From NCBI GenBank assembly GCA_024653985.1, contig JANLIS010000108.1, positions 1-10,234 of the forward strand: a DNA stretch of 10,234 bases, written 5' to 3'. The DNA comes from Candidatus Roizmanbacteria bacterium (GTDB lineage Bacteria > Patescibacteriota > Microgenomatia > UBA1406 > GWC2-37-13). How positions within the stretch are numbered: position 1 is the first letter of the stretch; every line of letters begins with the position of its first letter. The notes beneath the pieces were generated by a model. It was not told the DNA's origin. It did not search any database and saw nothing but the letters and a program-made list of their open reading frames with translations. The position numbers and the translations under genes were made by a program. Shown here in pieces: positions 283 to 9,951 of this stretch.

Positions 283-288
283 TATAAT
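283..288 (+). promoter_or_regulatory. -10 box placing transcription start at the ATG of 295
   Basis: A perfect TATAAT is followed by exactly 6 bases and then the ATG at 295. With normal -10 to +1 geometry the transcript starts on the start codon. No Shine-Dalgarno sequence is present. The only -35-like hexamer (TTGCAG, 264-269) is too close, at 13 bases. Confidence 0.6.
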
Positions 289-294
289 TAAATT

Positions 295-603
295 ATGAAA
301 CGTTGGCAAAAATATTGGCTCTATTTTAATATAATTATTTTTTCCCTCCATTTTATTCGGGATGTTTTTCAAAGCCTTGGGGTAAGAAATCTTCTTTCAA
401 CGTTTCTTGAATCAACAGGCGAACCTAAGGTTCCACTTATTATTTACTATACTATTTATAACACCGTAGTCATGGCTATTGTTGAGGTAACTTTTTCTGT
501 TATCTGTCTAAAACGTAATAAATTCGGAGCACTTGGTAAGTCAACAATTATTATGGCAATCTCATTTTTTATACTTTGGCTAATTTATTATTTTATTCTT
601 TAA
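295..603 (+). CDS. Small membrane protein, about three TM helices, function unknown
   Basis: This is a 102-residue protein that I do not recognise. Hydrophobic stretches at about residues 6-25, 45-70 and 82-102 suggest three membrane helices, with a basic loop (KRNKFGALGK) between the last two. The N terminus is basic (MKRWQK). No catalytic motif is visible. The ATG is chosen because a TATAAT box ends 6 bases upstream and no alternative start precedes it. It runs convergently into the next gene and the two stops overlap by 4 bases (600-603), so there is no room for a terminator between them. A role in the cell envelope is the most that can be said. Confidence 0.7.
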   Translation: MKRWQKYWLYFNIIIFSLHFIRDVFQSLGVRNLLSTFLESTGEPKVPLIIYYTIYNTVVMAIVEVTFSVICLKRNKFGALGKSTIIMAISFFILWLIYYFIL

Positions 604-938
604 TTATTAAAATATAATTCCCACCACTGCCTCCAGTTGGGCAGAGGTGTTGGGGTAATTGAAACAGGTGTTTTTGTCGGAGATGGAATGATTAAGGCAA
701 CCTCGTTGTCTTTAAGCAAGTTAAGATCGTTTCTGATCGTCTTTTCAATTTCTTCGGTACTTTTCTTTTTAACCACTTCAGTTTTTAATTCAATATTGCG
801 TTTTGTCTCTCTCTCAAAATTTTGTTTAAATTGTTGGTAAAAATCAAGTTTGCTCTTATAACTAAAAAGATTTTTGAGTAAAGAAGAAAATAAAAAAATT
901 AATAGAAAGATAAAAATAATATTCTTGACAAGTTTCAT
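600..938 (-). CDS. FtsB/DivIC-like septum formation initiator family protein
   Basis: This 112-residue bitopic protein has a short cytoplasmic N terminus (MKLVKN) and one membrane helix at about 7-23. A charged segment at about 28-70 is likely to form a coiled coil. Then comes a short motif (NDLNLLKDNEVALIIPSP), a proline/threonine-rich linker (87-100) and a tryptophan-rich tail (WRQWWELYF). The helix, coiled coil and 'L..L...E..l..p' order is that of the FtsB/DivIC family, which in other bacteria bridges FtsL and FtsQ at the division site. The W-rich tail fits CPR-type members as I remember them. The assignment rests on architecture, not on strong sequence identity. A TATAAT box lies 6 bases before the ATG. 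The gene lies downstream of the YqeY-family gene on the same strand but has its own promoter. Confidence 0.62.
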   Translation of the reverse strand: MKLVKNIIFIFLLIFLFSSLLKNLFSYKSKLDFYQQFKQNFERETKRNIELKTEVVKKKSTEEIEKTIRNDLNLLKDNEVALIIPSPTKTPVSITPTPLPNWRQWWELYFNN

Positions 939-944
939 GGTTAT

Positions 945-950
945 ATTATA
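945..950 (-). promoter_or_regulatory. -10 box with 6-base spacing to the ATG at 938
   Basis: TATAAT on the minus strand is followed by ATAACC and then ATG, so the transcript should start on the start codon. No Shine-Dalgarno sequence is present. Confidence 0.6.
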
Positions 951-969
951 GACCGAAGAATTGTTCTAT

Positions 970-1023
970 TGTTCCATTGTTACATTGTTAAAAATAACAA
1001 ACGAACAATGAAGCAATGAAACA
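970..1023. repeat. Imperfect inverted repeat made of ATTGTT-type units
   Basis: Arms 970-989 and 1004-1023 are complementary at 17 of 20 positions around a 14-base loop. Each arm is built from near-repeats of TTGTT/CATTGTT. It lies between the end of the YqeY-family gene and the promoter of the FtsB-like gene, so it could fold as a 3' stem-loop of the upstream transcript. It lacks the GC-rich stem and T-run of a standard intrinsic terminator. Similar low-complexity repeats occur in CPR intergenic DNA as I recall. Confidence 0.6.
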
Positions 1024-1034
1024 ATCAATCTTTA

Positions 1035-1475
1035 TTATGAGAGAAATGTCTGTAGTATCTTCATAATCCTTCCCGGGTCGGCTTTTGATTTCAATTGTTT
1101 CATACAAATTCCAATAATTGCCTTCTGATTATTATCAAAAACAGCCTGATTTTCTTTTATTACCTTTTCAATTTCAGTTTTAAGTTCTTCGTCACTTATC
1201 TCTTTAGGTAAATAAACAGAAGCAAATTCTAATTGTTTTTTACTATCTTCTGCAAGTTCTTTTCGTTCACCTTTTTCAAAAGCCTCAACAGATTCTTTTA
1301 ATTCCTTGATCACCTTCCTCAAAACAATCAAAACCTCCTCATCATTCAAGTCTGATTTTTTGTCAATCTCTTTATTCTTTATCTGTGCTAAAATAAAACG
1401 GAGAACATTGAGCCTGGTTTTATCGCCTGATTTCAATGCGGCGATCTGATCATCTTGAAGTTTTTGTCGTAACAT
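1035..1475 (-). CDS. yqeY: GatB/YqeY family protein
   Basis: This 146-residue protein starts MLRQKLQDDQIAALKSGDK and continues with the family pattern: RLNVLRFILAQIKNKEI, then a helical segment rich in E and K (EEVLIVLRKVIKELKES), then LEFASVYLPKEISDEEL, and a glycine-containing C-terminal helix pair ending with PGRIMKILQTFLS. The domain is related to the tRNA-binding tail of the GatB amidotransferase subunit. The stand-alone protein's role is not settled, though a tRNA-linked job is often assumed. The frame stays open to 1574, but the extra 33 residues are the antisense of the repeat at 1519-1545. A TATAAT box 6 bases upstream and the usual family length both favour the ATG at 1475. It is divergent from the 1494 gene. 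Confidence 0.88.
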   Translation of the reverse strand: MLRQKLQDDQIAALKSGDKTRLNVLRFILAQIKNKEIDKKSDLNDEEVLIVLRKVIKELKESVEAFEKGERKELAEDSKKQLEFASVYLPKEISDEELKTEIEKVIKENQAVFDNNQKAIIGICMKQLKSKADPGRIMKILQTFLS

Positions 1476-1477
1476 TA

Positions 1478-1487
1478 CATAATTATA
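1478..1487. promoter_or_regulatory. Bidirectional AT palindrome serving as -10 on both strands
   Basis: The palindrome ATAATTAT (1479-1486) supplies TATAAT on the minus strand (1487-1482), exactly 6 bases before the YqeY-family ATG. On the plus strand it supplies a weaker CATAAT (1478-1483), 10 bases before the ATG at 1494. The two start codons are only 18 bases apart, so both genes must share this site and their transcription start regions nearly touch. Confidence 0.5.
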
Positions 1488-1493
1488 GACCCT

Positions 1494-1928
1494 ATGGGAA
1501 AAAAAACAAGCAAGCCCTCCTTTGCTAAAGCTACGGCGGGTAAAGACATTCTGTCTCTTTTTGGAAATATTCAAAAAATAATTTCCTCAAAACCGGCAAC
1601 CAGCCAAATGTTTAAGGAAGTTCAAATGATGAAGTTCAAAATAAAACCGATCCAAGGAGACCTGATGTCATTTAATTTGAAAAACGAACAGTTTATCGAA
1701 AGTTTATGGAGCCTAGGAAAACTGGATGAATTTTTTTTCAGAGAAGTACCATCGCTTACAAAAAAAGAGAAGGAAGTTTTTATGAAGATCTTTGATAGTA
1801 TGTATTTTAAATATCAACAACAGCTCAATCAGGCTAATCTGCAGCAAAAAAAGACCCCTCTTACAAGAACAGGACTACTGGAATTGGAGATCTACAAAGA
1901 GAGGAAATTAAATAAAAAAACCAACTGA
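1494..1928 (+). CDS. Unknown protein carrying a translated SFAKATAGK repeat near its N terminus
   Basis: I do not recognise this 144-residue soluble protein. Residues 9-17 (SFAKATAGK) are encoded by the repeat at 1519-1545, inserted in frame just after the start. The rest is mostly predicted helix. It has a central conserved-looking segment (MFKEVQMMKFKIKPIQGDLMSF and FIESLWSLGKLDEFFFREV) and a lysine/glutamine-rich C terminus (about 98-144) that may be disordered or coiled. No membrane segment, signal peptide or enzyme motif is seen. It is followed after 7 bases by the exonuclease gene, so the two are probably one transcript. The start could be later: methionines lie at residue 39 and beyond, which would leave the repeat outside the mature protein. 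Confidence 0.65.
   Translation: MGKKTSKPSFAKATAGKDILSLFGNIQKIISSKPATSQMFKEVQMMKFKIKPIQGDLMSFNLKNEQFIESLWSLGKLDEFFFREVPSLTKKEKEVFMKIFDSMYFKYQQQLNQANLQQKKTPLTRTGLLELEIYKERKLNKKTN
1519..1545 (+). repeat. Dispersed 27-bp repeat, in-frame copy (SFAKATAGK type)
   Basis: This 27-base unit, CCTTTGCTAAAGC followed by TACGGCGGGTAAAG, matches 157-183 on the other strand at 20 of 27 positions. Here it is read in frame as (P)SFAKATAGK. The minus-strand copy at 183-157 would read as (A)FVKTTAGK in the same phase, though it is not inside a gene. From memory, both peptide forms recur inside unrelated CPR proteins, which suggests a mobile repeat that tolerates being translated. It also creates a false 5' extension in the opposite YqeY-family frame (RRSFSKGGL). 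Confidence 0.75.
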
Positions 1929-1935
1929 TCATACT

Positions 1936-2514
1936 ATGAGAAAATTTCCGGTCGTTCTTGATCTTGAAACAAAATATACCTTTAGAGATTTTGCCGAACA
2001 TTCAAAGTTAGGTATTACAGTTTTAGCGCTTTTTAACTATAAAGATAAATCTCAAAGGATATTTACAGAAAAAGATGTCAGAGACCTATTTCCGATACTG
2101 GAAAATTGTTCGTACATAATAGGATTTAATATTAATAGCTTTGACCTCCCTGTTCTCCAACCATATTATCCGGGAGACATAAAGCATTTTAAAACTTTTG
2201 ATATCTTAGATGATATAAAAAGAATTTTAGGTAGAAGATTGTCATTAAATGACACGATCAAAGCAACATTGGATAAAAAAAAGACCGGTCACGGATTGGA
2301 GGCGATTGATTTTTATAAAGAGGGAAAATGGGATGAACTGAAAAAATATTGTATGGACGATGTTATGCTTACTAAAGAACTTTTTGATTATGGGGTAAAT
2401 AATAAAAAGATTTCATATTTAAATGAAAACGGCAAAGTTGATATTAAGGTTGATTGGGAAAAATATCTGGAAGATAATGGCGGAAGTGAGATGCCATTGA
2501 CATTACCTTTTTAG
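1936..2514 (+). CDS. DEDD-type (DnaQ/RNase H-like) 3'-5' exonuclease
   Basis: This 192-residue protein has the three exonuclease motifs in order. Exo I is VVLDLET with D9 and E11. Exo II is GFNINSFDLPVL with D70. Exo III is YCMDDVMLTKELF, a Y-x3-D pattern with Y138 and D142, which marks the DEDDy subtype. These acidic residues bind the two metal ions used to remove nucleotides from a 3' end. The segment RRLSLNDTIKATL resembles stand-alone predicted exonucleases of the YprB/RNase H-like group. There is no polymerase or helicase domain, so it acts alone or with a partner. It lies 7 bases after the 1494 gene. No Shine-Dalgarno motif is seen, so it may be translated by coupling. The substrate (DNA or RNA) cannot be told from sequence. 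Confidence 0.8.
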   Translation: MRKFPVVLDLETKYTFRDFAEHSKLGITVLALFNYKDKSQRIFTEKDVRDLFPILENCSYIIGFNINSFDLPVLQPYYPGDIKHFKTFDILDDIKRILGRRLSLNDTIKATLDKKKTGHGLEAIDFYKEGKWDELKKYCMDDVMLTKELFDYGVNNKKISYLNENGKVDIKVDWEKYLEDNGGSEMPLTLPF

Positions 2515-2551
2515 TTTATAAAGTTATAAAGTTCGTAAAGTTTATAAAGTG
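2513..2551 (+). repeat. 8-9 bp tandem repeat filling the exonuclease-nitroreductase gap
   Basis: Four units, AGTTTATAA, AGTTATAA, AGTTCGTAA and AGTTTATAA, are followed by a partial AGTG. The array begins inside the TAG stop of the exonuclease and ends in the GTG start of the nitroreductase. It therefore is the whole intergenic region. Slippage here would change the spacing between the two genes. Confidence 0.8.
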
Positions 2552-3121
2552 ATTACAACAGATCAGATAATAGATATTAAGAAACCAAAATTAAAAGCGG
2601 AGATATTTAATTTGTTTAGAAAACGTTTTAGTCCGAGGGTTTATTCAGAAGAAGAAATTGCTAGAAAAGATTTGGATTCAATGATTGAAGCGGCTCGCTG
2701 GTCTCCCTCGGCAATGAATAATCAACCGTGGTTTTTTTACATTGCTAAAAGTGGCTCCGTTGGTTTTAAAATATTAATAAACTCTTTAGGTAATAGAAAT
2801 TATTGGGCTAAAAAAGCCCCCGTACTAATTTTAGCCTGCTATATAAAAGAAGATAAATTTGGTGAATATGGACAATATGATTTGGGGCAAGCCGTTTTTT
2901 CATTGGTTATTCAAGCAAGATCGCTTGGCTATCATAGTAGACAAATGGCAGATTTTAATAAAAAACAAGTAAGAAATAACTTAAAAATTAAAAATTCTTT
3001 TTTCCCTTGGGTAATAATCGCAGTTGGGAAAATAGGTGATTATACCAAAGCTGATTCTACCTTGATAGAAAAGGACAATCTGGAAAGGAAAAGAAAAGAA
3101 AATATCAAGATAGAAATTTAA
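2549..3121 (+). CDS. Nitroreductase family FMN-dependent oxidoreductase
   Basis: This 190-residue protein has the nitroreductase fold signatures: FRKRFSPRVYS (residues 24-34; the arginines contact FMN phosphate), ARWSPSAMNNQPWFFY (about 49-64), DLGQAVFSLVIQARSLGYHS (about 111-130) and the C-terminal strand WVIIAVGKIGDY. These flavoenzymes reduce nitro groups, quinones or similar compounds with NAD(P)H, and the natural substrate is not predictable. The length suits the small single-domain class. The start is a GTG embedded in the tandem repeat, and no ATG exists before the FMN motif, so the GTG is the best choice. It probably shares a transcript with the exonuclease. The next gene downstream also encodes an FMN enzyme. 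Confidence 0.82.
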   Translation: MITTDQIIDIKKPKLKAEIFNLFRKRFSPRVYSEEEIARKDLDSMIEAARWSPSAMNNQPWFFYIAKSGSVGFKILINSLGNRNYWAKKAPVLILACYIKEDKFGEYGQYDLGQAVFSLVIQARSLGYHSRQMADFNKKQVRNNLKIKNSFFPWVIIAVGKIGDYTKADSTLIEKDNLERKRKENIKIEI

Positions 3122-3158
3122 AATTCTTAATTTTTAATTATTAATTATCAATTCTACA

Positions 3159-3164
3159 TATAAT
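3159..3164 (+). promoter_or_regulatory. -10 box before the dihydrouridine synthase
   Basis: A perfect TATAAT stands 4 bases before the in-frame ACG at 3169. The other genes here use 6-9 bases, so the geometry is slightly off and the true first codon is open. Confidence 0.45.
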
Positions 3165-3168
3165 TAAT

Positions 3169-4113
3169 ACGAAGCCTATTATAGGACTGGCGCCGATGGA
3201 TGGGATTACCGATGCTCCCTTTCGCTATATCACTGATATTTATGGAAAACCGGATATTCTATATACAGAATTTACCTCCGTTAAAGGGTTGATCTTAGGA
3301 AAACCAGCAATCCAAAGAATGTTGCTCCGGCATAAAACAGAGACAAGAACGATTGCTCAATTTTTTGGCTGCGAACCGGAGTATTTTTATCAAGCAGCCT
3401 TAGTTGCACTGGAGAAGGGCTTTGACGGAGTCGATATTAACATGGGTTGTCCGGATAAAAGTGTCTTTCATAGGGGGGCAGGAGCCGCTCTAATAATCAA
3501 CCCCTCGGTTGCTAAGAAAATTATTCTCGCCGTAAAAAAAGGGATAAAAGATGGAAAAGAAAAATACAAAATTGATAGATACATTACAGTTTCTGTTAAA
3601 ACCAGAACCGGTTATCGAGAACCGCAAACGAAAGAATGGATAAGTCATCTATTAGAGGTTGAGCCGGATGTAATTTGTATCCATGCAAGAACCTTTGCTC
3701 AAAAATATTCCGGACTTGCCGATTGGACGCAGATAGGCATAGCTGCTGAGTTAATGAAAAATAGCAAAACAAAAATATTTGGTAACGGTGATATAAAAAA
3801 CAGAGCTCAGGCACTGGAGAGAATAAAAGAATATGATTTGGCCGGAGTATTGATCGGGCGGGGAGCTCTTGGAAATCCTTGGGTATTTACAGACAAGATT
3901 CCAACTACTGAAGAAAGATTCCAGGTTTTACTTGCACATTGTAAAAAGTTTGCGGAATTTTTTCCAACCACCGATCTAAGTATCATGAGAAAACATCTGG
4001 CTTGGTATGTAAAAGATTTTCCCCATGCAGCTGAAATTAGAAATGAACTGATGCAGGTAAACAATATTGAAGAAGTGAAAAAAATAATTTCTAAAACCCT
4101 AAAGACTCTTTAA
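3169..4113 (+). CDS. dus: tRNA-dihydrouridine synthase (Dus family), non-ATG start
   Basis: The TIM-barrel core is clear. Numbering from the internal ATG at 3196, it has MDGITDAPFR at the start, the active-site NMGCPDKSV (C85), VSVKTRTGY (FMN-binding K135), CIHAR (H163, R165), the phosphate-binding IFGNGDI (about 195-200) and GVLIGRGALGNPWVF. The enzyme reduces uridine to dihydrouridine in tRNA D loops with FMN and NAD(P)H. Starting at 3196 would remove the first barrel strand, which is plainly encoded just upstream as KPIIGLAP. The in-frame codon before that lysine is ACG at 3169, where an ATG is expected. I place the start there tentatively: it may be a real ACG start, a mutated ATG or a sequence error. 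The protein would be about 314 residues, normal for the family. The 3' end overlaps the convergent LUD gene by 23 bases. Confidence 0.85.
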   Translation, partial: TKPIIGLAPMDGITDAPFRYITDIYGKPDILYTEFTSVKGLILGKPAIQRMLLRHKTETRTIAQFFGCEPEYFYQAALVALEKGFDGVDINMGCPDKSVFHRGAGAALIINPSVAKKIILAVKKGIKDGKEKYKIDRYITVSVKTRTGYREPQTKEWISHLLEVEPDVICIHARTFAQKYSGLADWTQIGIAAELMKNSKTKIFGNGDIKNRAQALERIKEYDLAGVLIGRGALGNPWVFTDKIPTTEERFQVLLAHCKKFAEFFPTTDLSIMRKHLAWYVKDFPHAAEIRNELMQVNNIEEVKKIISKTLKTL

Positions 4114-4705
4114 CCAAAATCAATTTGATTCTGTTTGGGGCCGATTCTTTTTCAATAATAATCCACTTATTTAAACTGCTTTTTACACCATAAACTTTCA
4201 TCGCCCGCTCGTTTTCCAGATTGATTACATAATTTTTTATGCGATCAAAAGCACCTTCAATGTTTGGAACAATTTTATTAGCTCCAGCAATAATTAAAAC
4301 ATTTTTAGCTGCAAATGGTAAAGCTCCAACCCGACTTCCGGAAGCGTCAACTGCAACTAATTTCCCGTCTTCGGTGATAGCGTTAACACTACACAAAAAA
4401 TAATCTGCTTCTGTAATGGATTTTCTTCTTAAGTCTGATTGTTTGCTACGATCTGATTCCTTGAGAATATCCTCATGTAAATTTTTCCATTTATGATTTC
4501 CGGATTTCAATAAATCAGAAAACCCAATTTGTATTAGAGTTGTTGAAGAACCATTCATTATTTTTGAACTGGCCGGGACATTTTTTAATATTTCCTTAAG
4601 CGCCTGTTCTTTTGTATCAACAAGAATGACATCGATTCTATGATTTTTAAGCTCACAAATAGTTTTTTCTATTGTTTCGTTGTTTGGTACTTTTGAGTAA
4701 TCCAT
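4091..4705 (-). CDS. LUD-domain protein (LutC/YkgG-like)
   Basis: This 204-residue protein has the LUD (formerly DUF162) pattern: helical N terminus with SKVPNNETIEKTICELKN, ILKNVPASSKIMNGSSTTLIQIGF, then ITEADYFLCSVNAITEDGKLVAVDASGSRVGALPFAAKNVLIIAGANKIVPNIEGAFDRIKNY. In Firmicutes and E. coli, LutC-type proteins help oxidise L-lactate together with the iron-sulphur proteins LutA and LutB. Neither partner is in this window and no cysteine cluster is present here, so lactate use should not be assumed. It is the last gene of the panC operon, 24 bases after the alkyltransferase, but a TACTAT hexamer 6 bases before the ATG may give it its own start. Its tail overlaps the dihydrouridine synthase gene on the other strand. 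Confidence 0.82.
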   Translation of the reverse strand: MDYSKVPNNETIEKTICELKNHRIDVILVDTKEQALKEILKNVPASSKIMNGSSTTLIQIGFSDLLKSGNHKWKNLHEDILKESDRSKQSDLRRKSITEADYFLCSVNAITEDGKLVAVDASGSRVGALPFAAKNVLIIAGANKIVPNIEGAFDRIKNYVINLENERAMKVYGVKSSLNKWIIIEKESAPNRIKLILVKESLGF

Positions 4706-4711
4706 GTCTAA

Positions 4712-4717
4712 ATAGTA
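4712..4717 (-). promoter_or_regulatory. Possible -10 box (TACTAT) with 6-base spacing to the ATG at 4705
   Basis: TACTAT matches the -10 consensus at 4 of 6 positions and sits at the same 6-base distance seen at stronger sites in the window. It would allow the LUD gene to be transcribed separately from the genes before it. Confidence 0.35.
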
Positions 4718-4729
4718 ACAAATTTATAA

Positions 4730-5032
4730 TTATTTTTCCCACCTTGAAATAGCAAGATCAACCTTGTTGTTTTTGAAAAAAACACCTTCAATGATTAACA
4801 TTTTTTTCTTCTGAGCTATTCCGCCGATCCCTGAATAACCGGTGAGCCTACCATCTGAGGCGACGACACGGTGACAGGGGACGATCGGGGCACTAGGGTT
4901 TGTCCGCATAAATCCTCCGACCGCCCGAGCAGCCTTTGGTTTTCCGGCAAGTTCTGCCAGTTGTCCATAAGTAGCCACTTTTCCTTTGGGAATAGAGCTG
5001 CAAATTTTATAAACTTTTTCTTTGAAATTCAT
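4730..5032 (-). CDS. ogt: Methylated-DNA--protein-cysteine methyltransferase family, DNA-binding domain only
   Basis: This 100-residue protein corresponds to the C-terminal domain of Ada/Ogt/MGMT. It has a helix-turn-helix with YGQLAELAGKPKAARAVGGF (R36 is the intercalating 'arginine finger'), the NP turn at 45-46, and the active-site PCHRVV with C53, followed by GRLTGYSGGxA-like residues (65-73). The acceptor cysteine is kept, which favours a real alkyl-group acceptor over the alkyltransferase-like (ATL) proteins that have lost it. The N-terminal domain found in full-length Ogt is missing, as in many short members. It lies 8 bases after panC and 24 bases before the LUD gene, in one operon. 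A TTTAAT hexamer 7 bases before the ATG overlaps the panC stop and could act as an internal start. Confidence 0.85.
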   Translation of the reverse strand: MNFKEKVYKICSSIPKGKVATYGQLAELAGKPKAARAVGGFMRTNPSAPIVPCHRVVASDGRLTGYSGIGGIAQKKKMLIIEGVFFKNNKVDLAISRWEK

Positions 5033-5040
5033 AAGATATA

Positions 5041-5880
5041 TTAAATAATAATATTATCGATCAATCTTGTTTTTCCAACAAACGCAGTAATAAGAATAAC
5101 GGCTTTTTTTGAGGCGACTTTAACGATGGATAAATCCTCTATGTTACAAATTTCAATATAATCTAAACGTATTAATTTATATTTTTGTAAATAATTATTC
5201 ATCTCTGCTTTTATCTTTTTAACATTTTTATTTCCTGCCAATATTAATTTTTTTCCCAACAATAATGATTGATACAAACTCAATGCCTGTAATCTTTCTT
5301 GAGAGCTTAAAAAAACATTTCTTGATGAAAGTGCCAATCCGTCTTTATCTCGGACAGTTGGAACGATATTGATTTTAACAGGCAAGTTCAAGTCGCGAAC
5401 CATTTGTTTAATAACAATACACTGTTGAAAATCTTTTTGGCCAAAATATGCATTGGTAGGATTAACTAAATTAAATAATTTGAGAACAATGGTGGCAACA
5501 CCGGCAAAATGTCCTGGACGACTTTTTCCTTCAAGAATATTTGAAAGATTATTAGGAGTGACATAGGTTTGAAAACCATTTGGATACATTGTTTTTACAT
5601 TGGGATGGAATAAATAATCGACTTTTTCCTGTTCTAATAATTTTTTATCATGCTCGAGAGGCCGAGGATATCTAGCCAAATCTTCAGTAGGGGAAAACTG
5701 AGCAGGGTTCACAAATATTGAAACAACAGTTATGTCATTGTTTTTTTTTGATTCCGAAATCAATTTTAAATGTCCTTTATGAAGAGCTCCCATAGTTGGG
5801 ATAAAACCAATGGTCTTGCTTTTTTTATGCAAATCACTGGTAATTTTTTGCATTCCCTGGACAGAAGCTATTATTTTCAT
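5041..5880 (-). CDS. panC: Pantothenate synthetase (pantoate--beta-alanine ligase)
   Basis: This 279-residue protein joins D-pantoate and beta-alanine using ATP, through a pantoyl-adenylate, to make vitamin B5. All the family motifs are present: IPTMGALHKGHLKL with H34 and H37 (adenylate-forming histidines), IFVNPAQFSPTEDLARYPR, a pantoate/ATP site with KSRPGHFAGVATIV, NAYFGQKDFQQ, and RDKDGLALSSRN, the KMSKS-like loop. The length is normal. It is the first gene of a three-gene minus-strand operon. The -10 box TAAAAT sits 6 bases before the ATG and there is no Shine-Dalgarno motif. Neither panB, panE nor panD is in the window, so whether the cell makes or imports pantoate and beta-alanine cannot be judged. 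Confidence 0.96.
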   Translation of the reverse strand: MKIIASVQGMQKITSDLHKKSKTIGFIPTMGALHKGHLKLISESKKNNDITVVSIFVNPAQFSPTEDLARYPRPLEHDKKLLEQEKVDYLFHPNVKTMYPNGFQTYVTPNNLSNILEGKSRPGHFAGVATIVLKLFNLVNPTNAYFGQKDFQQCIVIKQMVRDLNLPVKINIVPTVRDKDGLALSSRNVFLSSQERLQALSLYQSLLLGKKLILAGNKNVKKIKAEMNNYLQKYKLIRLDYIEICNIEDLSIVKVASKKAVILITAFVGKTRLIDNIII

Positions 5881-5886
5881 TGATTA

Positions 5887-5892
5887 ATTTTA
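5887..5892 (-). promoter_or_regulatory. -10 box (TAAAAT) with 6-base spacing to the panC ATG
   Basis: TAAAAT matches the consensus at 5 of 6 positions. The six bases TAATCA separate it from the ATG, putting +1 on the start codon. Confidence 0.5.
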
Positions 5893-5998
5893 CACCACAA
5901 AAACAAAGTAAGGAATTATTTTTATTTTTTAATTTTGTCCTTGATCGTATTTGTTAGAGGGTTAGATCAATCAATAACAAAAAATAATTAAATTAATA

Positions 5999-6004
5999 TA
6001 TAAT
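5999..6004 (+). promoter_or_regulatory. -10 box before the gene at 6014
   Basis: A perfect TATAAT ends 9 bases before the ATG, giving a predicted leader of only about 3 bases. It is divergent from the panC promoter. The 133 bases between the two ORFs are otherwise AT-rich, with no clear operator. Confidence 0.5.
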
Positions 6005-6013
6005 TTAACAAAT

Positions 6014-6340
6014 ATGTTTATTAAACTTTTTATCAATGCTTTGGCTTTTTACATTACCTCCTATATTATTCCTGGGATGGTGATTGGCGGGTGGCAGACG
6101 CTACTGGTCATCGCCGTTGTCTGGGGGATACTGACGATTTTTATAAAACCGATATTGGTAATTCTGACCCTGCCTATAAACATCATGACGTTGGGGTTAT
6201 TTACATTTGTAATTAATGCAATATTGCTTTTAATAATGAGCAGTATTGTTCCTGATTTTCATTTGGCCGGTTTTGGGACTGCCTTGCTGGCTGCCATAGT
6301 CTTAACTATTGTCAATGGATTTTTGTCTACATTGAACTAA
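6014..6340 (+). CDS. Small four-helix membrane protein, phage holin 4 superfamily IV (Phage_holin_4_2) type
   Basis: This 108-residue protein is almost wholly hydrophobic, with about four membrane helices (roughly 2-20, 27-53, 58-80 and 85-106). It shows the family hallmark: IKPILVILTLPINIMTLGLFTFVINAILL, that is, a proline pair, 'LP-x-N-x-x-TLGLF' and 'VINA'. The name 'holin' is inherited from a database family. Members are chromosomal in many bacteria and their function is not established, so a lysis role should not be assumed. The gene stands alone with its own TATAAT box and ends 12 bases before the nucleotidyltransferase pseudogene. Confidence 0.82.
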   Translation: MFIKLFINALAFYITSYIIPGMVIGGWQTLLVIAVVWGILTIFIKPILVILTLPINIMTLGLFTFVINAILLLIMSSIVPDFHLAGFGTALLAAIVLTIVNGFLSTLN

Positions 6341-6352
6341 AAACTCTCAATA

Positions 6353-6569
6353 ATGACCAAAACGAATTTAAATTCAGAATATATTGATGCTCTTTCAATT
6401 ATTACAAAAGACGTTCCTCCAGATAGTTATATTGTTTTAGGTTCAATGGCCATGTTATCATTTACATCAAAAATTAGTTAATTTGGGAAAAGCCAAAAAA
6501 CTTCTTTCACTTTGTAGATTTGGATATCTATCATTGTCATTTCAAATTCCAAAGTTTATTCTTAAATAA
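6353..6569 (+). pseudogene. Nucleotidyltransferase pseudogene with a 434-bp internal deletion
   Basis: This is a second copy of the gene at 8859-9509. Bases 6353-6476 match the first 124 bases of that gene (6 differences). From 6478 on it matches the last 92 bases (about 16 differences, many at third codon positions). The length difference is exactly 434 (651 minus 217), so there is a single clean deletion. The intact gene carries the same 8-mer AAAATTGG at 8976-8983 and 9410-9417, 434 bases apart, and the join falls there, consistent with deletion between short direct repeats. The deletion shifts frame and meets TAA at once (6479-6481), leaving a 42-residue N-terminal peptide. The part with the catalytic aspartates is gone. 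The 3' piece stays open in its old frame to TAA at 6567, so decay looks recent. No -10 box sits at the usual distance. Confidence 0.93.
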
Positions 6570-6592
6570 CTCATTCAAATATATATGTATCA

Positions 6593-6610
6593 ATTAATCA
6601 ATAGATTAAT
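6593..6610. repeat. Perfect inverted repeat, 7-bp arms with 4-base loop
   Basis: ATTAATC (6593-6599) and GATTAAT (6604-6610) are perfect complements around AATA. It lies between the pseudogene and the broken gene at 6686. Because the arms are AT-rich, it could be an operator-like site or simply chance. Confidence 0.35.
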
Positions 6611-6671
6611 ACACAAGATAAAATAAATTATTTGAGACGAAAAATTGGGATTTTTTGATTATATATTTTAA

Positions 6672-6677
6672 TATAAT
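6672..6677 (+). promoter_or_regulatory. -10 box before the broken gene at 6686
   Basis: TATAAT is followed by 8 bases and then ATG. The promoter arrangement is like that of intact genes, supporting the idea that the fragment was once a real gene. Confidence 0.4.
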
Positions 6678-6685
6678 ATCAACAT

Positions 6686-6736
6686 ATGAATGTTCGACAA
6701 ATTTATGAAAAATATTTGATTCCTCCCAACCTACAA
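6686..6736 (+). pseudogene. 5' fragment of a gene, probably an HD-domain phosphohydrolase
   Basis: From the ATG at 6686 the first 17 codons read MNVRQIYEKYLIPPNLQ. From memory this resembles the start of HD-domain hydrolases common in CPR genomes (pattern 'IYxKYxIPPNLQxHxLRV'). After that the similarity stops: the frame reads KQVWDYFFFF and on to TAA at 6812, running antisense into the gene at 6751-7020. The HD metal-binding residues are therefore missing. The break lies at about 6737-6750, exactly where the next minus-strand gene ends. No 3' part of the gene was found elsewhere in the window. The family guess rests on 17 residues; that this is a gene start with its own -10 box is more certain. 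Confidence 0.45.
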
Positions 6737-6750
6737 AAACAGGTCTGGGA

Positions 6751-7020
6751 TTATTTTTTCTTTTTCGTGAAGAACTTTGAAATTAGGGCTAGGACAACTG
6801 ACACTCCGACGTAAACCACAAGTGAAAACCCCAACATTAGAAAGAAAGCATAATATTCTCCCACTTGTAGATAGGTAGAGAGTAAGAAAAGAGGGCTATA
6901 ATGTGCCACGGAATAACCACCAGTTTCTGACGGAGCTTGTTCTCTAATAAGTGGTAAAAGTAAAACAACAAAAGTTATCAGAAGATTTGTGGCGTAAGGC
7001 TTTAAAAACTTTAACTTCAT
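6751..7020 (-). CDS. Small two-helix membrane protein, function unknown
   Basis: This 89-residue protein has a basic N terminus (MKLKFLKPY), a first helix at about 11-24, an extracytoplasmic loop of about 33 residues (REQAPSETGGYSVAHYSP then a less polar stretch), a second helix at about 57-81 and a lysine tail (KFFTKKKK). The two ends are positively charged, so both should be cytoplasmic. The first helix could instead be an uncleaved signal anchor. I do not recognise a family. It has its own TATAAT 6 bases before the ATG. Its 3' end abuts the broken gene at 6686, so it may have arrived with the DNA that disrupted that gene. Confidence 0.68.
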   Translation of the reverse strand: MKLKFLKPYATNLLITFVVLLLPLIREQAPSETGGYSVAHYSPLFLLSTYLQVGEYYAFFLMLGFSLVVYVGVSVVLALISKFFTKKKK

Positions 7021-7026
7021 GGTTAG

Positions 7027-7032
7027 ATTATA
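7027..7032 (-). promoter_or_regulatory. -10 box with 6-base spacing to the ATG at 7020
   Basis: TATAAT then CTAACC then ATG on the minus strand. No Shine-Dalgarno motif is present. Confidence 0.6.
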
Positions 7033-7126
7033 GCATTTTCAATCAATTGTTCGAACTTTATACTGTGTCCTCCCTTAACTGGATTAGATCTAAGCCGGAA
7101 AAATCGGGTTTTTTTCTTAAGTAGTG

Positions 7127-8167
7127 TTATATTTTTAGTTCCTTCAAAATATAATAAGTAGACTTTCCTTTGCCTTTTGGTTTAATCAAACCAACATTAA
7201 TTAGTTTTTGAAAATCAAGGTACCGAGTGGCTCGTGCTCTTGTGGTCAACTTCGCATACTCTGAATCATTAATAAAACCATTCTGCTGAATTGTTTGTAA
7301 GATTATCTGATGGTGAGGTTTGAGATTATTATGTGGATTTATAAATAGTTGCGATACTGTCTTTTCTACTCGTAATAGTTCATCGATAATCCCATCGGTA
7401 AAATATTCAAGCCATTCCGTAAAGTCAATGAGACTAACTAAGTCGTAGTAATTCCCTTTTACCCCAACAATCTCAAAATATCTTGAGACATTGTTATTAT
7501 AATAATTTTCAAAACTAAATAAATAAAACGTATCCAGACCCATTTGGGCAAGAAGTATTTTTGTTGCTAACCGGGTTGTTCTGCCATTTCCGTCCATAAA
7601 AGGATGAATAATAACCATCTGTTTATGAAATATTCCAGCGACGATGAGCGGATCAACTGTTTGTTTACTTGTTTTTATAAATTCCATAAGCTCTTCTACA
7701 AGAGGCAAAACGTCTTGTGCATCTGGAGGCCAATAGACTGTTTTACCGAGATGTGGATTATTTACAAAGACCGGTTGTGTTCGAACCCGCCCCGATTGAT
7801 GAACTGGAAGAAGTTTGTCAGTGATTTTTTTTTGAAGAGAAATAATGAAGGATAGATTAAATGATGTCTTTTGTTTGTTTAACTTTGCATTGACATCTTG
7901 AAGTGCTTGGTTATAGTTAAGGACTTCTTGTTCACTCTCCCTTATCTGTGCCGGGCGGGTTTTTAGAATCCGTTTTACATCAGTGAGGGGAAGTGGGTTA
8001 CCTTCGATACTAGTTGAAGCAAATGCAGAAACAGCTTCTGCATTTTTTTGCAATTCAACTAAAACAACCTCTGGAAATCTCCATTGACTCATCGTATGTG
8101 TAAGTGTTGTAATGTGCTTAATATTCTTTAATAGCTTGTTGGTAATTGTATATTTTGGATTAAACAT
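7127..8167 (-). CDS. Fic-domain protein adenylyltransferase with C-terminal winged helix
   Basis: This 346-residue Fic protein would transfer AMP from ATP to a hydroxyl of a target protein. Numbering from the ATG at 8167, the N-terminal region holds STSIEGN (about 52-58), the [S/T]xxxE[G/N] inhibitory motif. Its glutamate normally blocks ATP binding, so this is a class II, self-inhibited Fic. The catalytic loop HPFMDGNGR (H187 to R195) is complete, preceded by GIFHKQMVII. A flap segment (NNPHLGKTVYWPPD) precedes it. The C terminus (about 285-346), with FINDSEYAKLTTRARATRYLDFQKLINVGLI and a GKGKSTYYIL wing, is a winged-helix domain. The frame also has a GTG at 8173, but that codon touches the TATAAT box; the ATG at 8167, 6 bases after it, is the likely start. 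No Doc/Phd-type antidote gene is adjacent, which fits built-in inhibition. Confidence 0.93.
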   Translation of the reverse strand: MFNPKYTITNKLLKNIKHITTLTHTMSQWRFPEVVLVELQKNAEAVSAFASTSIEGNPLPLTDVKRILKTRPAQIRESEQEVLNYNQALQDVNAKLNKQKTSFNLSFIISLQKKITDKLLPVHQSGRVRTQPVFVNNPHLGKTVYWPPDAQDVLPLVEELMEFIKTSKQTVDPLIVAGIFHKQMVIIHPFMDGNGRTTRLATKILLAQMGLDTFYLFSFENYYNNNVSRYFEIVGVKGNYYDLVSLIDFTEWLEYFTDGIIDELLRVEKTVSQLFINPHNNLKPHHQIILQTIQQNGFINDSEYAKLTTRARATRYLDFQKLINVGLIKPKGKGKSTYYILKELKI

Positions 8168-8173
8168 AGACAC

Positions 8174-8179
8174 ATTATA
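8174..8179 (-). promoter_or_regulatory. -10 box that decides the Fic start
   Basis: TATAAT is followed directly by GTGTCT and then ATG. Transcription is predicted to begin at the ATG (8167), so the GTG at 8173 would not be in the message. Confidence 0.6.
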
Positions 8180-8250
8180 GACTAATATTAGACGAATGTA
8201 AAGCTATTAGCCCTCCCAAAAACTCGGGTAATTAAAATATATTATTAAAT

Positions 8251-8760
8251 TTAATCAAAGTTCTTTTTAATAAGTTTTATGCATTCATCAACAGATGTTT
8301 TTTCTGTATCAAGCTTAATAGCATCTTCAAAAGGATTTTTTTCTATTATGTTAGATAAGTTACTGATAACAAAATTACCTAATGGTCTTCTACATCCTTC
8401 TTTAACCCCTGGTCTTATTCTATCCCGTACCTGAAGAACATTTATAGAACATTTAAGCTCATAAACGACGGTTTTAATATTTTTTTGTTTTGCTATATTT
8501 ACTGCTTCTTGAATATAAATAGGATTTTGAAACACTCCCTCCATAACAATAGAAAATTTTTGATTTAACAGATAATATAAAACTATAATTGCAGTATTAT
8601 TAACATCACCCAAGATTGAATCAGAACTTTCCGCAAAAAAAGGTTTAAAATTATCTATTTTTAACCATGCTATTTTCTTTTCATAATCTCTTAAGCTTTT
8701 AGCTATTGTTGATTTCCCACTAGAAGGAGCTCCTCTTAAAATCACAAGAACTTGTTTCAT
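8251..8760 (-). CDS. P-loop kinase, AAA_33 / zeta-toxin-like group
   Basis: This 169-residue ATP-binding protein starts with a strand and a Walker A loop, GAPSSGKST (residues 10-18). D36 in WLKIDNFKP is a likely metal or substrate acidic residue, followed by VMEGVFQNP (E74) and an arginine-rich lid, RDRIRPGVKEGCRRP (112-126). This order is that of small phosphotransferases in the AAA_33 family, which includes polynucleotide kinase-like, chloramphenicol phosphotransferase-like and zeta-toxin-like enzymes. The substrate is not evident. No epsilon-like antitoxin gene is adjacent, so a toxin role is speculative. It lies upstream of Fic on the same strand with its own TATAAT, so the two may be transcribed separately or read through. 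Confidence 0.82.
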   Translation of the reverse strand: MKQVLVILRGAPSSGKSTIAKSLRDYEKKIAWLKIDNFKPFFAESSDSILGDVNNTAIIVLYYLLNQKFSIVMEGVFQNPIYIQEAVNIAKQKNIKTVVYELKCSINVLQVRDRIRPGVKEGCRRPLGNFVISNLSNIIEKNPFEDAIKLDTEKTSVDECIKLIKKNFD

Positions 8761-8767
8761 ATAAAAA

Positions 8768-8773
8768 ATTATA
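8768..8773 (-). promoter_or_regulatory. -10 box with 7-base spacing to the ATG at 8760
   Basis: TATAAT is followed by TTTTTAT and ATG on the minus strand. The predicted leader is about one base. Confidence 0.55.
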
Positions 8774-8845
8774 TCAAAAATTGAACTACCAAAATAATTT
8801 AAGTCTAATAAAAAACTATTAACTGAAAAATTATAATTTTTTTGA

Positions 8846-8851
8846 TATTAT
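8846..8851 (+). promoter_or_regulatory. -10 box (TATTAT) with 7-base spacing to the ATG at 8859
   Basis: TATTAT matches 5 of 6 consensus bases and is followed by CCTCATA and ATG. It is divergent from the kinase promoter; 98 bases separate the two start codons. Confidence 0.5.
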
Positions 8852-8858
8852 CCTCATA

Positions 8859-9509
8859 ATGACCAAAACAAATTTAAATTCAGAATATATTGACACCCTT
8901 TCAATTATTACAAAAGACGTTCCTCCAGATAGTTATATTGTTTTAGGTTCAATGGCCACGTTATCATTTACATCAAAAATTGGCTATGAAAGAAAAATGA
9001 ATGATCTGGATATTATTGCCGATGAATCACAGGTTAAACCGATGAAAGATGTGTTGGAGGATCTGGGATTTATTCAGACGACATTTATAAATAAACGAAT
9101 GCCATTCTATAAAAAATTACTAAAACATAGTCAATCAAGATATCTTCGTTTTTCTAAAGACGATATCAATGTAGAAATTTTAACGACAAAATTTATTAAA
9201 AAAGATTCTAGTTTAAAATTTGATCTTTATCCAAATTTTTGGGTAAAAATTCCACAAGAGTCACTTTTTAAATCAAAGATAGGGGCGGTAAAATTTACAA
9301 CGCTTGATGTAAATCTGCTTTGGGCAATTAAATATCTACTGCATAATTCGTTAGGAAAATTTATATTTTATAAAGGAAAACAGAGAACAGAGGACCTTTT
9401 ACATTTAAGAAAATTGGTTAATTTGGGAAAAGCAAAAAAATTCCTTTCGCTTTTCAGATTTGGATATCTGTCTTTATCATTCCAAATTCCAGGATTTTTT
9501 CTTAAGTAG
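8859..9509 (+). CDS. Nucleotidyltransferase-fold protein (AbiEii/MNT-like), intact paralogue
   Basis: This 216-residue protein shows the nucleotidyltransferase signature: a helix-capping GS (VLGSMATLSF, G30-S31), then KMNDLDIIAD with D49 and D51 as the metal-binding pair, and a third acidic strand candidate INVEIL (D102 or E106). Downstream lies a helical region with a basic RTEDLLHLRKL segment, similar to the K/R-x(n)-DL pattern of AbiEii-type proteins. Such enzymes add nucleotides to RNA, antibiotics or proteins, and several act as toxins. No AbiEi-like antitoxin is next to it. The 3' third is the part most different from the pseudogene at 6353. The start ATG is supported by TATTAT 7 bases upstream and by the same ATG in the pseudogene. 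It is convergent with the gene at 9557. Confidence 0.78.
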   Translation: MTKTNLNSEYIDTLSIITKDVPPDSYIVLGSMATLSFTSKIGYERKMNDLDIIADESQVKPMKDVLEDLGFIQTTFINKRMPFYKKLLKHSQSRYLRFSKDDINVEILTTKFIKKDSSLKFDLYPNFWVKIPQESLFKSKIGAVKFTTLDVNLLWAIKYLLHNSLGKFIFYKGKQRTEDLLHLRKLVNLGKAKKFLSLFRFGYLSLSFQIPGFFLK

Positions 9510-9556
9510 TATCTAGGTTTTTTGTATTTGCTCCCCCAAGCACAGGCAATTAGAAA

Positions 9557-9937
9557 TTATTTGGAATTAGATTTAGACCTTTCCTGAATAGTTCTATTAT
9601 ACGATTTCATATTTTTCCAACCTACAGCTTCATTATATGCGAGTCTTAAACCTTCGCCCACCATTAAATAAGGGGCAATTTGAGCTGTGAATCTTAAAAT
9701 ATTAGTTGCAATTTTAACTTGACCTTCTAAAGGATAATTTGCATCAATAAAGTCAGCAACTTTAGGTAATCCAAATATTAGAGCTACACCCAATCCTTCA
9801 TTTATAAAAGTTTTAATAGGCTCAATGTAAATTCTTCTTATATAATCTTTCCTATATTTATTAAGATTAATTATCTCTCCCTGTGAAAAACCAAGGCTTG
9901 ACAATTGAAAATTGTGTAAATCATCTATTTTTGTCAT
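9557..9937 (-). CDS. Unknown small protein with one or two hydrophobic segments
   Basis: This 126-residue protein is not one I recognise. The N-terminal third (about 1-40) is polar, with KYRKDYIRRIYIEPIKTF basic and probably helical. A hydrophobic stretch at about 49-62 (LGVALIFGLPKVADF) and another at about 83-100 (LRFTAQIAPYLMVGEGL) could touch a membrane but are short and interrupted by charges. The C terminus is polar and serine/lysine-rich. No signal peptide or catalytic motif is seen. A TATAAT box lies 8 bases before the ATG. It faces the nucleotidyltransferase tail to tail with 47 bases between, and is the last full gene of the accessory region in this window. Confidence 0.62.
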   Translation of the reverse strand: MTKIDDLHNFQLSSLGFSQGEIINLNKYRKDYIRRIYIEPIKTFINEGLGVALIFGLPKVADFIDANYPLEGQVKIATNILRFTAQIAPYLMVGEGLRLAYNEAVGWKNMKSYNRTIQERSKSNSK

Positions 9938-9945
9938 AATAGTTC

Positions 9946-9951
9946 ATTATA
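9946..9951 (-). promoter_or_regulatory. -10 box with 8-base spacing to the ATG at 9937
   Basis: TATAAT then GAACTATT then ATG on the minus strand. The predicted leader is about two bases. Confidence 0.5.

Follow-up and report, generated by a model that had tools for sequence, protein, structure and literature searches.

Why should genes along a single short contig carry the hexamer TATAAT at one and the same distance from their start codons? The window considered here is the whole stretch of DNA analysed (contig C42, 10,234 nt), and it belongs to a Candidatus Roizmanbacteria genome bin of 817 kb in 127 contigs, 85.8% complete. The original prediction had listed -10-like hexamers ending six to nine bases before the start codons of this window and had taken them as a sign of leaderless genes. 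Re-read base by base, all of these hexamers and distances (gaps 6–9) proved correct, including the five perfect TATAAT copies at gap 6 before the starts at 295, 938, 1475, 7020 and 8167. We think it probable (about 0.87) that the hexamers belong to sigma-70 promoters fused to start codons, which would give rise to leaderless or near-leaderless mRNAs.

In what follows, a gap is the number of bases between the end of a hexamer and the start codon, starts are leftmost ATGs, a box is a hexamer with at most one mismatch from TATAAT in which A2 and T6 are fixed, and expected values come from dinucleotide-preserving shuffles of the upstream regions. Starts without the pattern (1936, 2549, 3196, 5032, and 1494 with CATAAT at gap 10) had been omitted from the earlier list. 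At gap 6, hexamers with at most one mismatch from TATAAT stand before 6/16 window starts and exact copies before 5/16 (the gene remnant at 6686 excluded), where shuffles of the same 16 upstream regions give 0.38 and 0.05 (binomial P about 1e-6 and 1e-9). Across 2000 shuffles, no single position between gaps 0 and 39 reached five exact copies, the maximum being three.

The same spacing stands out genome-wide. We used stretches of 60 other contigs together with the window (340,180 of 388,483 bases readable, from 40 of the 61 contigs, the rest being N; GC content 0.351 in the readable stretches), and analysed operon-internal starts apart from the others. A box at gap 6 precedes 30/195 non-operon starts versus 3.6±1.9 in shuffles (z=14.1), so that the peak expected at six or seven bases lies at six, and it recurs in a second genome of the same family (G156), at 23/147 non-operon starts (z=15). 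Gaps 5, 8, 10 and 13 are also raised in the bin (12, 16, 12 and 10 boxes) and gap 7 is not (6); over gaps 14–44 there is no overall excess (95 versus about 110 expected). Mononucleotide shuffling agrees (25/174 versus 4.2). With no prior choice of motif, TATAAT at gap 6 is the commonest of all hexamer–gap pairs in both genomes (20/273 and 13/212), and with the window left out it still precedes 18/263 starts, with 4, 9 and 0 exact copies at gaps 7, 8 and 12. Exact TATAAT at gap 6 is found at 21/275 leftmost ATGs versus 0/1134 internal ATGs; with one mismatch tolerated, 13/1191 internal ATGs have it. Most operon-internal genes are without the box (6/79 have it at gap 6). Shuffles of the window and of the genome thus bear out the view that a fixed distance is more than A/T-rich DNA would produce. 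The accompanying idea of an organism-wide default rather than a local trait holds in its second half, since the pattern is not local, but 'default' is too strong: gaps 5–8 together hold 64 boxes at the 195 non-operon starts versus 14.3 expected, an excess of about one quarter. Nor is the pattern confined to this organism: as described below, other genomes throughout the phylum have it too.

Divergent starts allow the two strands to be compared. At gaps 5, 6, 7 and 8 the bin has 8, 11, 2 and 10 boxes in sense versus 2, 2, 6 and 3 in antisense, and the second genome 0, 10, 3 and 5 versus 5, 1, 1 and 4; gap 6 is strand-specific in both. Farther out, at gaps 20–119, there is no clear sense excess (65 sense versus 77 antisense in the bin, 51 versus 49 in the second genome), and neither genome shows a distinct class of ordinarily leadered promoters within 120 bases. 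Divergent starts lie at most 33 bp apart in 7/29 pairs of the bin. Such short intergenic regions were dropped as proof of leaderless genes, as E. coli has pairs 33 and 38 bp apart too. Divergent start codons 15–30 bp apart were seen at 1475–1494 of the window and at three other loci (L062, 2776–2792; L015, 3604–3635; L074, 3590–3608). The palindrome ATAATTAT lies inside the divergent gap in the window and in L074, where one box may serve both strands.

The sequence around the boxes has the character of a promoter. The extended -10 element TGn accompanies 21/71 of the boxes at gaps 5–8 in the bin (4.8±1.9 in shuffles) and 22/62 in the second genome (4.4±2.0), a -35-like hexamer is enriched in the bin (28/71 versus 17.1±3.7), and there are three protein matches to sigma-70 region 2. 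Together with the scarcity of boxes at operon-internal starts, the TGn element and the sigma-70 proteins argue for a sigma-70 promoter and not a ribosome signal. If the hexamers are sigma-70 -10 boxes, RNA polymerase would be aided often by the extended -10 element and weakly by the -35 element, and the usual +1, the seventh base past the box, would be the A of ATG. A box at gap 6 would then yield an mRNA starting 5'-AUG, and gaps 7–9 a leader of one to three bases. A message with a leader of zero to three bases has no room for a Shine-Dalgarno (SD) sequence, and its translation would begin with the 5'-terminal AUG binding directly to a ribosome that carries the initiator tRNA, the mechanism known for leaderless messages.

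The absence of SD motifs, noted for the window from the start, extends to the genome. An SD core (GGAGG, AGGAG, GAGGT or AAGGA at -18 to -4) precedes 0/16 of the listed window starts, 5/198 non-operon starts of the bin (4.9±2.0 in shuffles) and 1/75 operon-internal ones (3.2±1.7), a total of 6/273 where about 8.1 are expected. The second genome has 4/147 (3.7 expected) and 2/65 (2.3), a total of 6/212 where 6.0 are expected. A 50 kb sample of E. coli, run through the same code as a positive control, has 11/31 (1.0) and 2/11 (0.4), a total of 13/42 where 1.4 are expected; it has no box at gap 6 before its non-operon (0/31) or operon-internal starts (0/11). The 3' end of the 16S rRNA of the bin carries an intact anti-SD, GGATCACCTCCTTTCT, which the missing motifs, and these only, suggest goes unused. 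In Bacteroidota, too, the anti-SD is intact despite missing SD motifs.

Operon-internal genes cannot be leaderless and would have to start in some other way. SD motifs are missing there too, and most of these starts would have U at -1 of the message. T at -1 precedes 177/273 starts of the bin and 133/212 of the second genome, versus 356/1277 internal ATGs of the bin (G000 stretches, L067–L086). The share in the bin is 73% at operon-internal starts without a box at gaps 5–7 (n=62; 69% of all operon-internal starts, n=75), 52% at starts with such a box (n=46) and 24% at spurious open reading frames (ORFs; n=1366); the corresponding values in the second genome are 82%, 49% and 23%. Operon-internal starts have only 44% (n=73) in 20 other genomes of the class and 29% (n=17) in E. 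coli, the non-operon starts of which have 46% (n=59). The gap-6 starts of G109, another genome of the phylum, do not fit the rule of the bin, with 80% of 15. We had considered T at -1 as a transcription-initiator signal and rejected this, as it is strongest operon-internally and at gap 8 and weaker at gaps 5–7; we read it instead as a probable context signal for leadered starts. U(-1) can pair with the initiator tRNA. Of 285 open-licence papers matching a search for this pairing, none of the 20 listed was about it, as judged by titles and the beginnings of abstracts. Our broader proposal, that the Roizmanbacteria family may have given up SD-led initiation, with operon-first genes largely leaderless, leadered and operon-internal starts recognized by U(-1), perhaps through a fourth base pair with the initiator tRNA, and a promoter-fused mode that would be a trait of much of Patescibacteria, is a tentative one that we hold somewhat closer to doubt than to belief.

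A ribosome without bS1 was also considered. No bS1 was found in the bin (86% complete), which has two S1 hits only, a 704-aa frame of PNPase size and NusA. We put this absence down to incompleteness, since three genomes of the same family (G156, G306 and G316) have bS1-like frames of 362–391 aa, each with more than one S1 hit. Six same-class genomes more than 90% complete (G298, G299, G302, G315, G318 and G321) have a single S1-domain hit and may lack bS1.

The box is conserved among close relatives. The product of 1035..1475, which we take to be YqeY, has matches in 84 of 94 genomes of the class, of which the best 30 loci and three named ones were taken; 32 of these 33 gave a start (L158 gave none). 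Among the ten close loci (protein identity 46.9–100%, the threshold being 46.8%; the locus of the window is one of them, and L065 and L066 come from a single assembly), the box stands at gap 6 in nine and the remaining one carries TATACT at gap 7, most flanking bases being different. The distant loci have it at gap 6 in only 2/22, and as several of their upstream regions resemble the end of another gene, yqeY may be operon-internal there. Over all 32 loci, 14 have a box at gaps 5–8 versus 1.4±1.2 in shuffles. The box of the DivIC gene (start 938) is likewise found at gap 6 in L064, L065 and L066, three loci from two Roizmanbacteria assemblies (the match in L066 covers residues 1–34 only), and reads TATACT in L074 of G156. 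The final codons of yqeY contain this box in L064, where the yqeY stop codon overlaps the DivIC ATG. In L073 and L107, distant Fic relatives are preceded by TATAAT at gap 7. PanC was set aside for this purpose in favour of YqeY, as only 2/93 other genomes of the class had a match.

Patescibacteria, with their reduced genomes and ribosomes, account for a large part of bacterial diversity. In 286 of their genomes, drawn evenly over the phylum, whole-genome counts give 7364 copies of TATAAT-N6-ATG versus 2808 of TATAAT-N12-ATG (2.6-fold), a comparison in which the coding background is matched because N12 keeps the reading frame of N6. The N6 pattern is the more frequent in 263/286 genomes (equal in 8), in 121/130 families and in 24/24 genomes of the class, the bin included; 73 genomes are singly significant after Bonferroni correction. 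Against a reversed-pattern control the ratio is 2.5-fold (7364 versus 2990; higher in 258/286, equal in 8). Counted from starts, 20 same-class genomes have z=8.5, 7.1 and 5.7 at gaps 6, 7 and 8, with SD not raised at non-operon starts (8/186 versus 6.2±2.4) and raised at operon-internal ones (10/80 versus 3.6±1.9). In three samples selected because their N6 count or ratio was high, the box lies at gap 6 in 15/68 (G109, z=15), 12/51 (G244+G252, z=19) and 10/68 ('others', nine stretches of which eight were readable, z=11), with SD at 23/68 (2.8±1.5 in shuffles), 9/51 (1.9±1.4) and 3/68 (2.0±1.3). The peak is present also at 40–51% GC (G156, G109 and G244+G252). Twenty genomes chosen blind to the signal (one stretch each, 18 readable) have the box at gap 6 at 12/169 starts (z=6.2), with SD at 22/169 versus 5.6±2.2. 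The putative leaderless box is thus widespread in the phylum and varies in strength, and the SD counts indicate that SD use differs between lineages.

Several results weigh against this interpretation. About three quarters of the non-operon starts of the bin have no near-consensus box beyond expectation at gaps 5–8, and the gene calls themselves come from an in-house ORF caller and not from a curated annotation. The -35 signal is missing in the second genome (17/62 versus 15.8±3.4). Sequences upstream of tRNA genes, which were to show the box independently, are only weakly enriched for it (6/10 versus 3.4±1.3 and 4/7 versus 1.5±1.0), and tRNA promoters were dropped as an independent calibration of the -10 box, being too few and too weakly enriched. 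Operon-internal starts show a small excess at gap 6 (6/75, z=4.5), which could come from internal promoters or from wrong operon calls. The secondary peaks are less secure than the one at gap 6: the bin shows strand specificity at gaps 5 and 8 and the second genome does not, and at gaps 9–13 divergent starts have about as many boxes in sense as in antisense (19 versus 18 in the bin, 12 versus 9 in the second genome); the parity in the bin indicates that part of the excess at these gaps reflects local A/T richness or symmetrical boxes. Across the phylum, N12 beats N6 in 15/286 genomes and the reversed pattern does so in 20/286. In the signal-blind sample, boxes at gaps 20–39 number 54 versus 40.3 in shuffles, which suggests that ordinary leadered promoters are visible in other lineages.

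Among other explanations, the one that survives best accepts the promoters as real and holds that they make mainly short-leadered mRNAs (1–8 bases), true 5'-AUG messages being a minority. The secondary peaks at gaps 8, 10 and 13 speak for it, as do the starts at gap 8, which have T at -1 in 12/15 and 12/14 cases, like leadered operon-internal genes, and the same-class sample, in which gap 7 equals gap 6 (11 each). But no other gap holds as many boxes as gap 6 in the bin, in G156, G109 and G244+G252 and in the 'others' set, and the antisense strand equals the sense strand at gaps 9–13 in the bin; we therefore regard this explanation as unlikely, if the strongest of its kind. Considerably less probable is that the hexamer acts as a signal in translation, on a leadered mRNA where it would be either a binding site or a stretch rich in A/U and left unpaired. 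U-rich or A-rich leaders do aid SD-less initiation, and the motif occurs at a few operon-internal starts as well, but an exact TATAAT consensus that follows TGn at a sharp spacing looks like sigma-70, and the motif is rarer operon-internally (6/79 versus 30/195), where such a signal would be most needed. Chance matches picked by eye in A/T-rich DNA, an idea favoured by the low GC content (about 35% in the genome, 32% in the window) and by the starts omitted from the first list, are refuted by the position-specific peak in data outside the window, with z=14 at gap 6, no exact hexamer at internal ATGs, the 2.6-fold and 2.5-fold ratios over 286 genomes and a signal at 40–51% GC too, and deserve next to no credence.

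A promoter fused to the start codon is of a kind already known, and excerpts of several papers allow a comparison. In Deinococcus-Thermus, as excerpted, a TANNNT -10 box lies about 6–7 bp before about 30% of ORFs, with no 5' untranslated region expected, and was shown to act as a promoter (PMC12340547); the box described here is alike in position. Unlike in D. radiodurans, where according to the same excerpts TACACT is the most frequent box and the second primary motif is SD-like (PMC12340547), we find TATAAT with TGn, and in the two genomes of the Roizmanbacteria family that were tested SD does not exceed chance. The text of that study does not name Patescibacteria. Excerpts of an earlier survey put leaderless genes at about 20% in Actinobacteria and find TA-led genes also in Mycoplasma, Lactobacillales and others (Zheng 2011, PMC3160421). 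There, as here, genes are interpreted as leaderless from a TA-like signal, which in that survey lies some 10 bp ahead of the start, and the form resembles that of low-GC Firmicutes, TAtAAT, in several of which a TG peak lies ahead; the phyla listed in these excerpts do not include Patescibacteria, one genome being unclassified (PMC3160421). SD motifs are missing as in Bacteroidota; the difference is that here a leaderless promoter signature stands alongside and T at -1 is favoured at leadered starts. Excerpts of a study on SD-less bacteria describe A/T-rich biases at about -20 to -10 in Bacteroidetes and Cyanobacteria, possibly leaderless, so the combination of SD loss with a leaderless signature may not be unique (PMC5397173).

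Among the matches listed, no title or abstract on leaderless genes in Patescibacteria was found in the open-licence literature searched, a body that leaves most subscription papers and all preprints outside. The GeneMarkS-2 study, which reportedly includes leaderless transcription in its models of prokaryotic genes, could be relevant to novelty. Excerpts of four papers contain no such report (PMC6851277, PMC9723584, PMC10434106 and PMC12369343), and in those of a fifth leaderless genes appear only in the remark that YchF promotes the translation of leaderless mRNA (PMC12641178). Within that literature, the occurrence across Patescibacteria seems new, as does the fact that both Roizmanbacteria-family genomes tested combine it with missing SD. 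If our interpretation is right, the gap-6 box would let transcription starts be read directly from the genome in mostly unculturable organisms, would correct the start-codon calls of SD-based gene finders and would show which promoters can be expected to function in those few members that are open to genetic work. A link between the loss of SD and leaderless genes in reduced genomes also becomes testable, as one phylum holds genomes with the box and SD (G109, G244+G252) and genomes with the box and no SD signal (the bin, G156).

The boxes and genes of the window are collected in Table 1. The PanC start is supported because the TIGR00018 profile matched from position 1.

Table 1. Candidate -10 boxes and associated genes in the window
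Feature	Position	Strand	Remarks
-10 box TATAAT	283..288	+	gap 6 before ATG 295
ORF, 102 aa, probable leaderless gene	295..603	+	looks hydrophobic; no Pfam match
-10 box TATAAT	945..950	-	gap 6 before ATG 938
DivIC/FtsB-like septum formation protein, 112 aa	600..938	-	Pfam PF04977, E=3e-10
-10 box TATAAT	1482..1487	-	gap 6 before ATG 1475
GatB/YqeY-like protein, 146 aa	1035..1475	-	sole NCBIfam match GatE C-terminal region, far under cut-off
CATAAT	1478..1483	+	gap 10 before ATG 1494; overlaps opposite-strand -10 box of divergent gene
ORF, 144 aa	1494..1928	+	no Pfam match; start codon and divergent start 1475 separated by 18 bp
Weak -10-like TACTAT (two mismatches)	4712..4717	-	gap 6 before ATG 4705
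LUD-domain protein, 204 aa	4091..4705	-	Pfam PF02589, E=2e-33
-10-like TAAAAT	5887..5892	-	gap 6 before ATG 5880
PanC, pantoate--beta-alanine ligase, 279 aa	5041..5880	-	NCBIfam TIGR00018, E=3e-105
TATAAT	5999..6004	+	gap 9 before ATG 6014
Four-transmembrane holin-IV-superfamily-like membrane protein, 108 aa	6014..6340	+	Pfam PF04020
TATAAT	6672..6677	+	gap 8 before ATG 6686 of gene remnant
-10 box TATAAT	7027..7032	-	gap 6 before ATG 7020
ORF, 89 aa, membrane-protein-like	6751..7020	-	no Pfam match
-10 box TATAAT	8174..8179	-	gap 6 before ATG 8167
Fic/DOC family protein, 346 aa from ATG 8167	7127..8167	-	Pfam PF02661, E=5e-16
-10 box TATAAT	8768..8773	-	gap 7 before ATG 8760
P-loop kinase-like protein, 169 aa	8251..8760	-	Pfam PF06414/PF07931
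-10-like TATTAT	8846..8851	+	gap 7 before ATG 8859
ORF, 216 aa, nucleotidyltransferase-like by eye	8859..9509	+	no NCBIfam match
-10 box TATAAT	9946..9951	-	gap 8 before ATG 9937
ORF, 126 aa	9557..9937	-	no NCBIfam match

A partial second copy of the ORF at 8859..9509 can be seen by eye at about 6353–6566, where the initial ~125 bases of the ORF and part of its 3' side are present and the middle is absent; the second gene remnant (6686) lies after it. The Dus gene has no ATG, GTG or TTG at the N-terminus expected from homology (3165–3200), and the DusB profile matched only from position 15, so that the gene may use a non-standard start codon or encode a shorter protein. Its protein is 82–83% identical, near full length, to loci of two Candidatus Roizmanbacteria assemblies, and a third locus, from the second of these, has 79% identity, which places the bin in the Patescibacteria/CPR (class Microgenomatia); in this start region L065 has an in-frame ATG, and L064 and L066 have none. 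At the contig edge, positions 1–71 hold by eye a tRNA-like sequence on the minus strand for which ARAGORN gives no call, and the same sequence is found at about 3470–3541 of L064, adjoining the DivIC gene.

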